Shown here piece after piece: positions 52 through 12,509 of a DNA stretch of 27,101 bases (the stretch's first letter is position 1; every line of letters begins with the position of its first letter). Location of the stretch: IMG/VR virus record IMGVR_UViG_3300030380_001076, positions 10,716 to 37,816 of that record; one strand, written 5' to 3'. Origin of the DNA: a virus. The position numbers and the translations under genes were made by a program. The notes beneath the pieces are model-generated. The model ran no database searches. It was given only the letters and a program-made list of their open reading frames with translations, and was not told where the DNA came from.

Positions 52-2654
52 CTATCTGTGAAGTAGGTAAAGGTTGTTGCAATAGCTATGTTAGATTGGG
101 AAGCTTCTTTCTCTAACCTGATTTGGTCATCGTTTGAAATAATACCATTTATAACACTATACCTATTATCTGATTGGGTCATTTTACCTATATATAATTG
201 GGCAGAATTAGATGCGGCAGTCCAAACATATGTTGCATTACCATCTGGCCCAGTGCCATCTCTTGTTCTAAGAGAACGCCCCATAAATATACCGTGGCAA
301 ATATGAGAAGGAGTAAATGGAAGTTGTCCTTGACCAGAAGCAGTTAAGACATCTACTGCCGCCCCTGCCGACCTACCACCGTCAGAAACATAAGTACCCC
401 CACTACCAGTTCCAGCACCATCACCTATAGTCACAGTTACCATGCGGCCAACTTTTACATACTTACAAGTATCTAAATTACTACCTGTTAGTCCTACTTG
501 GAAAGTGCCTTCTTCGTAGTCGTCAAGCTCGTTAGATGCACTATTTGCTCCGATACGAAGTCCACCAGAAGTAAGATACATTACGTTGGTAGAACCAGCA
601 CGGAATGTCATTGTGTCTGTACTGTGGCTGTATTGAATCTCACCAGCATCGTGGTCTTCTGGGTCACCAAAGTTGATAATATTGTTACTGCTATTTGGAC
701 TAGCAAACTGAAGAAGTACCGTAGCATTATCTTCAATAAATAGTTCACCTTGAGGGGATACTCCACTATCTCCCTCTGATATCATAACCTTTGCGCCAGT
801 TTGACCTTCAACCGATGGGCCGATTCTAAGATTATCGTTAGTCCGTGGAATATCAATACCAGTGCTATCAAGGCGTATTTGTGTCATGGACGCCGCACCA
901 GCTTCAGTGCCATTTTGTGCAGTCCTAAGTTCTATTATTCCATCTTCTTGACCGTTTGTTGGGTCACCAATCTGTGCGCCTACAACAGCATAAAGAGTTT
1001 CGTTAGATGCGGAGTCTTCGCCCATCATACGCATTGCGCCAATAAAATCATTAGCGGCAGGAGTTGGGCTATTTCTTTTTAAGTCAAACCTTGGCCCGGA
1101 AGCGGCGGCATCTCCTGTGTGTGTTAGAGTCACATCACCATCAGTTGTAACCGTAATCAGGTTGTGGTTATCAATACCTAAAGTAGAGAGAGAACCCCCA
1201 ACATCAGTAATATTAAACGTACCGTAGGCTACAATATCTACCGTGTCGCTAGTTGCGGCGGCTGTAGTTAGCGTAATACTTGTACCGTTAGTAGCTGTAA
1301 AGTCTGTCCCAGCTACAAGCTTCACACCGTTCAGATAAAAGTCTACATAACCACTATCGTAAGTAGCAGGGAATACGGTTGTTGAACCTGTGTAGCTTCC
1401 ACTAGATGTCCCAACTACATAACTATAACGTTGAGAAGTACCGTTGACGGATGAACCAGCATTAACAAAGCCAGTGCCATCGTAGACTTTCATCACATTG
1501 TTTGTGCTATCAAACCACAAGTCACCTGTAGTTGGACTAGCAGGGGCTGTTGCAGAGACAGAGTATGTATCTGCGAAGTTGTTTACATTCGTAAGGTTAG
1601 AGGCAACGGTGTTAATGTTGGTTGCCGCACCAGCCACCGTGTTGATGTTCGTAGCGTTGCCAGCTACAGATGTCACATTTGAATTATTAGATGCCACAGT
1701 GGATACATCTGAAGAAATGCCAGCTACTGTTGTTACATTTCCAGCTATGCCAGCTACTGTTGTTACATTAGATGACACTGCCGCTACTGTAGGAACGCTA
1801 GAAGAAATCCCTGAAACAGTGTTAATCTGGGAATCAATACCAGCGACTGTTGATACATTACTAGAAATACCAGCAACTGTAGTAACATCAGATATATTGT
1901 TACCGACTGCGTTTACGTTACTTATATTCTGAGCAACTGTATCAATTTCAGACACAGCTTCATTCAAGTCATCAGCCGCTGTCTCAATCTCAGAGATAGC
2001 TTCGTTAAGGTCATTCGCTACAGTCACCACATCAGCAATGTTAGTGGCTACTGTATTTACGCTAGAGATATTTGTAGCTACTGTACCAATGTCAGTAGCA
2101 TCCCCAGCCACTGAACTAACGTGTTGGGCAATCCCGGCCACTGTACTAACGTCTGACGAGATGCCAGCTACCGTGGTAATATTAGGAATGTTGGTAGAGA
2201 TAAACTGCTTGTTTACCGCATCTTGGTTGTCTACAGGGTCAGCAACATTGATGATGCGTTTATTACCAGCATCCCATCTGTTGTTAGCGTCAACCGTGAT
2301 AGCCTCGTTAGCAATGTCGATGGCCTCTTGTGCCATGAAAAAGCCCTGCTCAGAGTCAGTATCAAGGTCAGCTTCCTTAAACACTGAGCCAGCCGCATAG
2401 TCCACTAGGCGTGAAGTTTGGCTGGTTGCTCTAGAGATAAAGATAGAGTGACCGTTTGGTGGGTTACCAAGAGGGGACGAACCTTGAGAAAAGTCAATGA
2501 TTGTACCCCCTGTGGTCACTTTGAAGTGCGTATTTAGGGTTTTTGTTACACCATTGACTTTCACGATTAAGTCGGCTTCATCCCTGTATGAAAAACCGAT
2601 GGCAAAGGTAGGGGTACTACCGTCACCGTTTGTTCTTGTAATCGCAAAAGACAT
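48..2654 (-). CDS. Tail fibre protein (T7 gp17-like N-terminus)
   Basis: An 868-residue receptor-binding fibre; T7 gp17 has 553. Residues 1-115 match the T7 tail fibre N-terminal domain that attaches the fibre to the tail: a FAIGFSY beta-module, then SRLVDYAAGS and a helical AQEAIDIANEA segment. Residues 157-360 are about 18 copies of a ten-residue unit ending in TVAG, interrupted at about 215-242 by two 14-residue DLNEA[IV]SEI repeats that look like coiled coil. Residues 422-480 hold a second beta-module (VDFYLNGVKL...DFTATNGTSITL). The C-terminal 350 residues are Gly/Ser/Thr-rich beta sequence with a DYEEGTF motif often seen in phage tail proteins, and probably determine host specificity. 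I see no S74 chaperone peptidase. An AAGGA ribosome binding site lies 10 bases before the ATG, which directly follows the gp16-like stop. Confidence 0.93.
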   Translation of the reverse strand: MSFAITRTNGDGSTPTFAIGFSYRDEADLIVKVNGVTKTLNTHFKVTTGGTIIDFSQGSSPLGNPPNGHSIFISRATSQTSRLVDYAAGSVFKEADLDTDSEQGFFMAQEAIDIANEAITVDANNRWDAGNKRIINVADPVDNQDAVNKQFISTNIPNITTVAGISSDVSTVAGIAQHVSSVAGDATDIGTVATNISSVNTVATNIADVVTVANDLNEAISEIETAADDLNEAVSEIDTVAQNISNVNAVGNNISDVTTVAGISSNVSTVAGIDSQINTVSGISSSVPTVAAVSSNVTTVAGIAGNVTTVAGISSDVSTVASNNSNVTSVAGNATNINTVAGAATNINTVASNLTNVNNFADTYSVSATAPASPTTGDLWFDSTNNVMKVYDGTGFVNAGSSVNGTSQRYSYVVGTSSGSYTGSTTVFPATYDSGYVDFYLNGVKLVAGTDFTATNGTSITLTTAAATSDTVDIVAYGTFNITDVGGSLSTLGIDNHNLITVTTDGDVTLTHTGDAAASGPRFDLKRNSPTPAANDFIGAMRMMGEDSASNETLYAVVGAQIGDPTNGQEDGIIELRTAQNGTEAGAASMTQIRLDSTGIDIPRTNDNLRIGPSVEGQTGAKVMISEGDSGVSPQGELFIEDNATVLLQFASPNSSNNIINFGDPEDHDAGEIQYSHSTDTMTFRAGSTNVMYLTSGGLRIGANSASNELDDYEEGTFQVGLTGSNLDTCKYVKVGRMVTVTIGDGAGTGSGGTYVSDGGRSAGAAVDVLTASGQGQLPFTPSHICHGIFMGRSLRTRDGTGPDGNATYVWTAASNSAQLYIGKMTQSDNRYSVINGIISNDDQIRLEKEASQSNIAIATTFTYFTDS
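1575..2186 (-). repeat. Ten-residue (30-base) tandem repeat in the tail fibre
   Basis: Fibre residues 157-360 repeat a ten-residue unit, roughly I-S-S-N-V-x-T-V-A-G, for example ISSDVSTVAG, IAGNVTTVAG and ATNINTVAG. At DNA level this is a degenerate 30-base period with recurrent gcaactgt/gccactgt-like words on the plus strand. Two 14-residue coiled-coil-like units interrupt it at residues 215-242. The repeat probably forms an extended trimeric shaft, and copy number may vary between relatives. Confidence 0.85.
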
Positions 2655-9324: not shown

Positions 9325-9513
9325 TTAAACTTGGCGTGAACCTACAATCGTGCAGTTATACTCAACTGTTTTCCAGTTACCATCTTGAGGTAATTCTTCA
9401 TGTAACTGTTTCATTTCCATACATTGTGGTTTTTCTTCAAACCATTGTATTGTTTGGTTTACACAATGTAATTCACCACAAACCGTCAACAGTAAACTCC
9501 ATATTACTTCCAT
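9325..9513 (-). CDS. Small Cys-containing protein of unknown function
   Basis: A 62-residue ORF that fills the gap between tail tube B and the gp13-like gene almost exactly. An AGGAG ribosome binding site lies 7 bases before its ATG. The N-terminus (MEVIWSLLLTVCG) is hydrophobic and could be a short signal or membrane anchor. Four cysteines (12, 17, 31, 54) could form disulfides if the protein is exported. There is no good lipobox because the residue before Cys12 is Val. I do not recognise a function; minor virion component, envelope-acting ejection factor or lysis accessory are all possible. It is probably real given spacing, ribosome binding site and lack of any better frame. Confidence 0.72.
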   Translation of the reverse strand: MEVIWSLLLTVCGELHCVNQTIQWFEEKPQCMEMKQLHEELPQDGNWKTVEYNCTIVGSRQV

Positions 9514-9528
9514 AATATGTCTCCTAAT

Positions 9529-11895
9529 TTATATTCGCTGTGACCTGATTGTGTAATGACCTTCCCACTCAGCGTTTTGTATTTGTACTGGTAGGTAACT
9601 ATCAGATGTAACTTTTACTGATACTTGGTCATTCTTTGCTTGGACGGGAAAACGGAAAGTACCATCAGAAAGAATAACATCTTCGATGGTAGAACCTGAT
9701 TGGTTAAGTACAACACCTGTAAACTCGTACTCGTAAGTCTGTCGTGCCTCTGGTGTTACCTGTACCTTAAAGTAACCAGTGTCCTCGTAGTTAATCCGCA
9801 TGGTTCTTAACTGTAGTCGCCCGGACTGTACGGACTGTGCCCCATTCTTTTCTCTAACGTGTTGTGTAGAGAACTCATAGGTCATGTCATACGGGATACC
9901 AACCAACACATCATAATAATTTATGCCCCCACCGCCTATTCCCCCTGCGGGTGTAGAGAACGAAGTAAAGTTACCTGTGGCGGCTACAGTGGTTGTAGAG
10001 GGGCGTGTCGTTGTAATATCTGTGCCCTCTCTGTCTCCAAAATTATTAAACTTAATTACCTTTACTTCTTGTGAAGTATTCATTTCATAAGGTAATGTCC
10101 AAGTTGTTGTATTTGTAGTAATGTCATAGCTGGCATCAATTCCACCACCTAATAGTTTTTTTCTGTCAAGCCTAACATTAAAACCTAATGTTCCATCTTC
10201 AGGTACTTGGAGTGGTAACTTTTCTAGGTAAACACCATCAGTATTATTGACAACCATATATAAATCGTTATCAATAATTTCTATGTCTAAAATACCTTCA
10301 TCAGAAGACACGATTCCAGCCGGGGCACTTTGATTATAACCAAAGTCCCATGTAGACCAACTAGACTGTAGTTTCTGTCTACCATCAGTAAACCATTTAT
10401 ATACAAATAGTTTCCATCTATTTCCCGTGTCATGCGATAGGGCAACTAGGGTATCTTCGTTACTTGAGGTGGCTAGTTTTACAACATTATTTGGTACATA
10501 CTTTGGAACGTGTGCTGTAATTTCTAGTGCATCAGTAATCACCGTATCAGATGCAATAAAGTATTCTCTTAGACTAGAGAAATTTCCTTTTTGTGTAACA
10601 AAGTATAATGAGTTACCAGCACCTACGGGAGAAACATCTACCTCATTTTCAAACTCTGTACTAGGTACAATAGAAATACTTTGAGGGGTCAGGTTACCAG
10701 CCGTTGTAATAGTGAACTGTGTCTGGTCACTAAACAAAGTAAGTGACTCATTAAAGGCTATTGCATGATTAAGTAATGAAATCTTTGTATGACTTACCGA
10801 CACATCAATAGGGTCACCAGCAAGTAATGTGGTAACTGTGTTAGGGAAGAATCTAAAAAATTCCCCTGCGGCTGACATAATGATTTTATCTTCAGATAAA
10901 ACTCCAAGTCTGTTCTTAAAGAAAAATATGTCGTTTAGTTTTTGCCCTATAAAAGACGGGTCTGGGGCTGAGTCTTCATCACCTACAGTTCTGTTATTCC
11001 ATGTGCTATGTTCAAGCGTAAACGCTGTTGGGTTAGTTGCACTATTTGGAACAAGTTTTACTGGTAGAGTCCGTTCATCTAATCTAAATTTAATACCCGG
11101 TTTTACAGTTTCTTCGTATGAAGTACCACTAAGTGATTTTACATAATAGTTGTCAAATGAACTATTTTCATCACCTACGATTTCATAATATTCATTTGCG
11201 CTTGGGCGTTCAAATATAACAATACTATCCCCACTATTAGGAATATCATTAGAAGGAAACCTAACACGAGATTTGTCAGTCCCTTCAATAGTAATAGCAC
11301 TAGTTTTATTTGAACTATTTACCCTGACTTGGATGTCAGATTCTTTGCCATAATTAAAACCAATAGCAAACCTTCGTTGTGTCCCATCTCCTGTGTAGTG
11401 TGTTTCTCTCTCAGTAGGCAAATCCGCAAAGCTTTGATACTTTTTAGATTCAAGAGTGCCAGAAGTAGTATTCGTCCTCATCGCTGTTGTTTTTGACTTA
11501 TTAAGAATAAAAGTCGTGTCAGCAATCGTCAGAAACTTTAAGTCTCTTTGAGGATTGTTTGTGTATAGGTATTGGTCAGCATTACTGGTTACATTTGTCG
11601 TAACAGAACCGCCAGTTAGCGTAAACACAGCAACTGTTGCGGATGAATTAGTAGATGTAACTACGACAATGTGTCTATTATTAACGCCTCTATCAATAAT
11701 ATGAACAGCCGCATCAGAAACGGTACTGTTTAATATCTTAGCAATATGTTCTGTACTAGGACGCTTAATAAGCCCATCAATAACTGAGGACAAAGCGTTG
11801 ATTTGAGTTTCTCCCTGAGTCAACTGTCGTAGTGACGATGGCTGTTGACTAACCCCATTGAGTAGATTCGGGATACTGGTAGAAACTAGAGGCAT
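9529..11895 (-). CDS. Tail tubular protein B (tail nozzle, T7 gp12-like)
   Basis: A 788-residue protein, near the 794 of T7 gp12. The N-terminus (VSTSIPNLLNGVSQQP) is the typical start of this family. In T7 six copies form the nozzle at the tail tip and hold the fibres together with gp11. The body is beta-rich with blocks such as FFFKNRLGVLSEDKI and FSDQTQFTI that are characteristic of the family. Residues 169-232 form an inserted module closely resembling the N-terminal domain of the phage's own tail fibre. It lies 2 bases after the tail tube A stop. Confidence 0.93.
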   Translation of the reverse strand: MPLVSTSIPNLLNGVSQQPSSLRQLTQGETQINALSSVIDGLIKRPSTEHIAKILNSTVSDAAVHIIDRGVNNRHIVVVTSTNSSATVAVFTLTGGSVTTNVTSNADQYLYTNNPQRDLKFLTIADTTFILNKSKTTAMRTNTTSGTLESKKYQSFADLPTERETHYTGDGTQRRFAIGFNYGKESDIQVRVNSSNKTSAITIEGTDKSRVRFPSNDIPNSGDSIVIFERPSANEYYEIVGDENSSFDNYYVKSLSGTSYEETVKPGIKFRLDERTLPVKLVPNSATNPTAFTLEHSTWNNRTVGDEDSAPDPSFIGQKLNDIFFFKNRLGVLSEDKIIMSAAGEFFRFFPNTVTTLLAGDPIDVSVSHTKISLLNHAIAFNESLTLFSDQTQFTITTAGNLTPQSISIVPSTEFENEVDVSPVGAGNSLYFVTQKGNFSSLREYFIASDTVITDALEITAHVPKYVPNNVVKLATSSNEDTLVALSHDTGNRWKLFVYKWFTDGRQKLQSSWSTWDFGYNQSAPAGIVSSDEGILDIEIIDNDLYMVVNNTDGVYLEKLPLQVPEDGTLGFNVRLDRKKLLGGGIDASYDITTNTTTWTLPYEMNTSQEVKVIKFNNFGDREGTDITTTRPSTTTVAATGNFTSFSTPAGGIGGGGINYYDVLVGIPYDMTYEFSTQHVREKNGAQSVQSGRLQLRTMRINYEDTGYFKVQVTPEARQTYEYEFTGVVLNQSGSTIEDVILSDGTFRFPVQAKNDQVSVKVTSDSYLPVQIQNAEWEGHYTIRSQRI

Positions 11896-11897
11896 GA

Positions 11898-12509
11898 TTA
11901 GAACCTTACTGCTCTGCGAGGCGAACCTCGTGAAAGAATTTTGTATGTATCAAAGTTGTCTGACAGAATGTTGTTGTCTTCGTTCAACTTCTCTGCACGT
12001 TCAAACTGAACCATTGCTTCACGTTCATCTATCTCTGTAAACCCACCTAGGCTCTCAGAGCCGATGTAACGGCCTTGGAAGCGTCTAGCGGCTTTGACAG
12101 TAGTGTATCGTCTAACGTGCTGTGGTAGGTCTTCAAAGTCCAGCAACAGCACCATCTCAACACGGAGTGTTCCTGTGAAGGATGTGAAGCTTCGTTCTCC
12201 CCGGTCATATAGACGGTTGCCACGCTGAGTTACATCTATATCAGCCGATGTTTCTGTGGTGTCAATTCGTACACAGTTGGTAGGTACAATGATTTCGCCA
12301 TTAACATTAGCTGTTAAGGGGTAGTTGATTTCAGTGTTACAGTGTAGTCCCTGTGTTTGTATATCTACCGAAGTCTCATCTAATATGGACTCAGCCAAAG
12401 ACACATCCACCAATGACGGGTTGTTCAGACTAGATACAGGAGACTCACCGATGGCTGAAAGCATAATATTTACAGCCTCAATCTTTGAGGTTGGTGCAAT
12501 AAGAGCCAT
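11898..12509 (-). CDS. Tail tubular protein A (adaptor, T7 gp11-like)
   Basis: A 203-residue protein, compared with 196 in T7 gp11. It connects the portal to the nozzle and provides fibre attachment. Family features seen are an N-terminal helix (EAVNIMLSAIGESPVSSL), an ILDETSVDIQTQG segment, and a helical stretch with RRYTTVKAARRFQ. It is the first gene after the capsid terminator and has AAGGA 9 bases before its ATG. Expression must therefore come from readthrough of that terminator or from an unseen promoter. Confidence 0.93.
   Translation of the reverse strand: MALIAPTSKIEAVNIMLSAIGESPVSSLNNPSLVDVSLAESILDETSVDIQTQGLHCNTEINYPLTANVNGEIIVPTNCVRIDTTETSADIDVTQRGNRLYDRGERSFTSFTGTLRVEMVLLLDFEDLPQHVRRYTTVKAARRFQGRYIGSESLGGFTEIDEREAMVQFERAEKLNEDNNILSDNFDTYKILSRGSPRRAVRF

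Follow-up and report, generated by a model that had tools for sequence, protein, structure and literature searches.

A fibre-type β-domain at the predicted site of the tip barrel in a T7-like phage tail nozzle

The tip of the phage T7 tail nozzle, gp12, is built by a loop from blade 3 of the propeller, whose base is marked by Y146 and Y281; it consists of a β-barrel and a three-stranded sheet, and the dock for the fibre is a separate domain between the propeller and the platform (excerpts of PMC6702177). The same excerpts describe the tip as projecting toward the outer membrane and holding one of four gates, with the narrowest gates of the channel lying in the propeller; the tip sheet comprises residues 264–294 (excerpts of PMC11784390). 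For a Vibrio phage, nozzle proteins are reported to bind the host receptor (excerpts of PMC7241545). Here we describe a stretch of viral DNA, hereinafter the window (27,101 nucleotides; positions 10,716 to 37,816 of the 37,816-base IMG/VR record IMGVR_UViG_3300030380_001076), which carries minus-strand structural genes of a T7-like podovirus. Its nozzle appears to lack the canonical tip β-barrel and to have instead, in the tip-leading propeller loop, a β-domain of ~68 residues of the type that anchors tail fibres. We give a probability of about 0.7 to this reading, under which the domain would be the host-facing tip. The elements on which it turns are as follows:

9529–11895, minus strand: tail nozzle (T7 gp12-like; P0001), 788 amino acids (PF25675 Phage_nozzle, E-value 1e-207; AlphaFold2 [AF2] model against 9jyz_P)
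11200–11403, minus strand: fibre-type β-module in the nozzle, residues 165–232, at the predicted place of the tip β-barrel (sequence, profile and predicted fold)
11416–11433, minus strand: SFADLP, nozzle residues 155–160, which precedes the module here; in canonical nozzles its counterpart comes after the tip barrel
11101–11196, minus strand: nozzle residues 234–265, the predicted counterpart of the T7 tip sheet, present in tipless nozzles too (alignment and the anatomy in PMC11784390)
48–2654, minus strand: tail fibre (T7 gp17-like), 868 amino acids (PF03906 over residues 5–157, E-value 4e-32)
2427–2639, minus strand: fibre N-terminal β-domain, residues 6–76, homologous to the nozzle module (sequence and profile comparison)

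The assignment of the nozzle is supported by both sequence and predicted structure. It matches PF25675 with 692 bits (curated cut-off 27 bits), the best stretch being residues 237–788, and the AF2 model of the whole protein (predicted local distance difference test [pLDDT] 84) has the T7 gp12 fold, aligning with the T7 nozzle 9jyz_P at a Z-score of 38.6 and 3.1 Å over 669 residues. The best solved nozzle by sequence is gp23 of P-SCSP1u (8i4m, E-value 1e-116), whose tip region, unlike that of the window nozzle, is of canonical length (133 residues). An initial sequence-only reading of the window had noted that nozzle residues 169–232 (11200–11391, minus strand, as the translation bears out) resemble the N-terminus of the fibre, and we could recover this similarity by several routes. 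In BLASTP searches, nozzle residues 165–227 aligned with fibre residues 6–73 with 29/69 identical positions (42%); in a subject set of three sequences, the E-value was 5e-7 when only the first 90 residues of the fibre were used and 7e-6 for the fibre in full. The Smith-Waterman score of the module against the fibre was 94, and shuffled sequences scored 26.7 ± 5.2, with 0/1000 as high. When the whole nozzle was searched against its own virus record, the one other match was the fibre (E-value 3e-5, query residues 165–227). PF03906, which models the T7 fibre N-terminal domain in Pfam, also matched nozzle residues 165–226, with an E-value of 0.012 and 15.8 bits, which is under its curated cut-off of 25.2; the match covers model positions 9–67 of 157 and is internal in the nozzle, rather than spanning the whole model at the N-terminus. 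A PHROGs search and a single-sequence search of the PDB with the nozzle retrieved no fibre family.

Once relatives were included, profile-based comparisons made the similarity firm. Alignment of 14 modules against fibre N-termini with hhalign returned a probability of 98.5% and an E-value of 1.7e-14 (single comparison), a profile made from eight modules recovered fibre N-termini, the lowest E-values being about 1e-13, and, conversely, a profile made solely from fibres detected the window nozzle at 6e-12 (two-sequence search). Among 10,176 open reading frames (ORFs), a set that includes overlapping loci, the profile of the 14 modules found 123 non-nozzle ORFs at a domain E-value < 1e-3; a jackhmmer profile built on the fibre N-terminus likewise detected every one of these, the matched stretch began within the first 40 residues in 114 of them, and a reversed-sequence control gave 0 matches. 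On these sequence comparisons, the nozzle module and the fibre N-terminal domain are homologous. Chance or convergent likeness of two jelly-roll domains could be entertained, as such barrels are common in tails and the T7 fibre docks are also jelly rolls (excerpts of PMC6702177); however, the profile comparison, the detection of the window nozzle by the fibre profile, and the empty reversed control disfavour it to the point that we consider it barely credible. In the PDB, the module profile retrieved no T7 gp17 chain at E-values up to 10, its best match being 9s0y_AB, annotated as 'Phage particle protein' (E-value 2e-6); hence, the link to T7 itself rests on fold.

That link was obtained with AF2 on the 14 modules, which produced a six-stranded model with a mean pLDDT of 80 and ten-residue means of 88–94 over residues 11–80. 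In Foldseek searches of the PDB, the best 22 matches were phage tail or fibre entries, including chains labelled T7 gp17 (best E-value 5e-4), and pairwise comparison with the T7 fibre N-terminal domain gave Z 10.0 and 1.9 Å over 70 residues for 7ey9_a, Z 8.7 for 8dsp_C, and Z 8.6 for 7boz_b. Among the 50 matches listed from a viral structure library, most of the named ones were fibres, the closest at 1.3–1.7 Å, and one was named Tail tubular protein B. The predicted structures thus agree with the proposal that the nozzle and the fibre share a β-module of the same fold. The module resembles the N-terminal domain of T7 gp17 in sequence and predicted fold (Z 8.6–10.0), but in T7 the domain stands at the start of a trimeric fibre protein and belongs to a longer model, whereas the window module is internal to a hexameric nozzle protein.

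The same reading had proposed a third, more distant copy within the fibre:

1233–1409, minus strand: possible distant third copy, fibre residues 416–474

The similarity of this segment is weaker than had been described: against the nozzle module it scored at chance level (828/1000 shuffles as high), and against the fibre N-terminus a weak signal stands (30/1000 shuffles as high). Consistently, a fibre profile gave it 14.6 bits (independent E-value 3e-6, two-sequence search) and the nozzle-module profile −0.4 bits.

We located the module relative to the described anatomy by alignment with T7 gp12. Nozzle residue 234 aligns with T7 residue 263, immediately ahead of the T7 tip sheet, so the module would occupy the place of the tip barrel with the sheet region kept. 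Like the canonical tip barrel, the module has the TIADTTF region of the nozzle on one side and the YYEIVGD region on the other. In T7 the barrel is followed by QSFSKLP, and in other canonical nozzles by a stretch such as QRFTDLP; in the window nozzle there is no barrel ahead of SFADLP and the module is placed after it. The T7 tip (6r21, 9jyz) and the module are therefore alike in belonging to the same protein, in their place in the chain, and in similar flanking stretches, but differ in that canonical tips and modules align at the flank only: hhalign of the 14 modules against 96 canonical tips aligned just 18 flanking columns around SFADLP (24.8%). Judged from these alignments, the canonical tip barrel is absent, a fibre-type module stands in its place, and the neighbouring sheet region is kept. 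Thus, the term insert, used at the outset, is inapt, since the module replaces the tip barrel instead of being added to an otherwise canonical nozzle.

We then compared tip regions across relatives, using 163 unique nozzles that have both flanks (12/210 nozzle ORFs are partial and were left out). Three states emerged: nine nozzles have a tip region of 41–55 residues without a tip domain, 17 have one of 106–118 residues with the fibre-type module, and 137 have one of 126 or more residues and were classed as canonical. By contig, the module is present in the window and 17 further contigs and the tipless state in 11. In several loci between L037 and L082, and in L229, the tip region is lengthened (222–358 residues), often with glycine-rich stretches. 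A nozzle tree of 50 rows, with tip columns removed and near-copies and short rows dropped, placed 12 module and seven tipless rows in one clade (Shimodaira-Hasegawa-like approximate likelihood ratio test [SH-aLRT] 100) with the 31 canonical rows outside. Inside that clade, neither a single module clade (approximately unbiased test, p-AU 0.67) nor a single tipless clade (p-AU 0.19) was rejected, so that a single barrel loss and a single module gain might be enough to explain the pattern. Comparison of mean tip identity between module and canonical pairs gave no clear sign of faster evolution of the modules: 0.33 (1 pair) versus 0.38 (165 pairs) at 50–60% backbone identity, 0.37 (99) versus 0.53 (31) at 60–70%, 0.68 (13) versus 0.63 (41) at 70–80%, 0.69 (15) versus 0.78 (40) at 80–90%, and 0.77 (4) versus 0.83 (20) at 90–98%.

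Both unusual states were sought beyond these contigs. A 99-residue segment with the module, searched against 50,697 cultured-phage records, gave 136 matches, none over 80% of the query, and the annotations of the 60 listed were fibre, lyase, or hypothetical; a segment of L166 gave 45 matches, likewise none over 80% of the query (25 listed). For the tipless nozzles, the best 40 of 2527 cultured-phage records had match spans of 2337–2493 bases, longer than the 2043 bases of the tipless query, as would be expected if each of them had a tip. Searches of bacterial and archaeal genomes yielded 61 pattern matches, none of them a relative by tblastn.

The sequence-only reading had suggested contact between nozzle and fibre as a possible role of the module. 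On that view the module would be a docking element for fibre N-terminal domains, e.g., a pseudo-subunit beside the fibre trimer. The idea has a structural rationale, in that fibre N-termini sit between the adaptor and the nozzle fibre docks in P-SCSP1u and T7 (excerpts of PMC10575957 and PMC6702177), where a homologous domain could pack. However, when the nozzle is aligned with T7 gp12 and read against the anatomy published for T7, the module lies at the distal tip and not at the fibre dock, which makes nozzle-fibre contact unlikely. The expected co-variation with the fibre also fails. Here the adaptor enters the comparison:

11898–12509, minus strand: tail adaptor (T7 gp11-like; PF17212, E-value 6e-48)

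The loci L103 and L104 have fibre N-termini that are 86% and 85% identical to that of the window over 160 residues, and adaptors that are 86% and 87% identical (the L104 adaptor is partial, 156 residues), yet their nozzles have no tip domain. A module missing from relatives with the same fibre N-terminus is what the sequence-only reading had named as refuting it. Moreover, in the five loci where both module and fibre are available, the module scores best with its own fibre in 0/5. Docking of the fibre by the module is accordingly very unlikely in our view. The related proposal of a swap point holds insofar as the tip-carrying loop exchanges tip domains; it does not hold for fibre parts.

The origin of the module was addressed with module-fibre trees, which comprise 79 columns, leave out seven long-branch fibres and near-copies, and resolve little beyond the following. 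All 14 modules form one clade (SH-aLRT 96–97). A recent copy from the phage's own fibre, modelled as one clade of the five window-group modules and the four fibres of that group, was rejected (p-AU 0.006), in a test weakened by the fact that the group was defined with an earlier tree already in view. A joint clade of the 14 modules and 12 fibres of the lineage was not rejected (p-AU 0.60), so the duplication envisaged from the sequence alone is possible as an old event, though not as a copy from the fibres of the window's own group. The module was probably drawn from the pool of fibre-anchor domains, possibly when the fibre domain of the lineage was duplicated long ago, and would since have been inherited with the nozzle and not exchanged with the fibre.

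Similar domains occur elsewhere in phage tails. The distant nozzle of L162 (1–2520) has a fibre-type module near its C-terminus (residues 705–769) together with a tip region of canonical length, apparently an independent transfer. The fibre ORFs of L012, L013, L014, L044, L054, L067, and L079 have a second copy of the module β-domain behind the N-terminal one, at residues about 165–244. Among solved structures, the nozzle-like chain of cyanophage A4, 9k09_U, matches the nozzle model (Z 19.1), and its residues 697–998 match the module alone (Z 8.4, 4.1 Å over 87 residues; Foldseek 2.5 Å, E-value 0.03); unlike the window module, the matching piece is in the C-terminal part and not at the tip, and this is a match by fold, where a Z near 8 may reflect a common arrangement. 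Comparison by fold also relates the module to the predicted structure of UniProt A0A0F7LBJ1 ('Tail tubular protein B' from an uncultured marine virus; 1.5 Å over 75 columns). Taken with L162 and the seven fibre ORFs, the 9k09_U piece suggests that phage tails have used this domain as a building block repeatedly. The module might be a socket that anchors a further distal protein, such as a second spike or plug, through the face by which fibre N-termini attach to the tail. The domain family does fix receptor-binding proteins to tails (excerpts of PMC12692247), and the second copies in the seven fibre ORFs would fit; nevertheless, no partner gene was identified, with no systematic search made, the domain is trimeric in fibres and the nozzle hexameric, and the tipless relatives do without it. 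We deem such a socket improbable.

Given that the T7 tip protrudes toward the host and carries a gate, and that nozzle proteins of a Vibrio phage are reported to bind a host receptor, we take the module to be most likely a replacement host-facing tip, a function proposed by analogy. As inferred from T7, the six copies in the hexamer would be arranged around the channel exit and directed at the outer membrane. They would cap the closed nozzle on its host side or serve as its contact surface there, and would move apart along with the protomers when it opens. Several points weigh against this proposal. The nozzle searches were seeded with the window nozzle and its relatives, so that the counts of tip states are not frequencies; the canonical class was defined by length only; and barrel loss and module gain could have come in either order. 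Further, the tipless relatives suggest that the nozzle can do without the module, which may thus have no specific task. On an alternative reading, the module would be no more than a neutral filler: a β-domain, small and stable, that a permissive loop tolerates and that has no function of its own, as the existence of tipless relatives and the range of tip regions from 41 to 358 residues would allow. Its retention across the window and 17 contigs, down to 34% identity with the window's module and with core residues invariant, speaks against a filler, which we rate as just as doubtful as the socket.

The remaining contents of the window are those of a T7-like structural cassette: Pfam matches identify portal, adaptor, nozzle, a gp14-like internal protein, and fibre, and the capsid, scaffold, and two large internal proteins were assigned from gene order and by eye only. 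Between the nozzle and the next gene lies a 62-residue ORF (9325–9513, minus strand) with a hydrophobic start and several cysteines. In the part of the record outside the window (L094, 1085–2161), an ORF resembles a phage integrase by eye only.

In sum, we report an unusual domain replacement, in which both the domain and the protein are familiar but the site of the domain is unexpected, alongside a natural series of tipless relatives; we recognised no description of a fibre-type domain in a nozzle in the literature (open-licence PMC papers). Since tipless relatives exist, the barrel is apparently not needed for closure of the channel, and the comparisons suggest that the host-facing tail part is a swappable, perhaps even dispensable, module. 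More tentatively, and with rather less than even odds, the tip of T7-like nozzles could in general be an exchangeable, dispensable plug-in: the standard tip would have been lost in one lineage, giving rise to tipless phages, and its site filled by a domain of the receptor-binding fibre system, the nozzle then carrying a host-contact or docking domain, with L162 as a second independent transfer. With a natural lineage that lacks the barrel, and with its module-bearing relatives, the role of the tip can be tested through comparison of natural relatives, and the finding hints that the tail parts that bind receptors and those that form the channel have exchanged domains.
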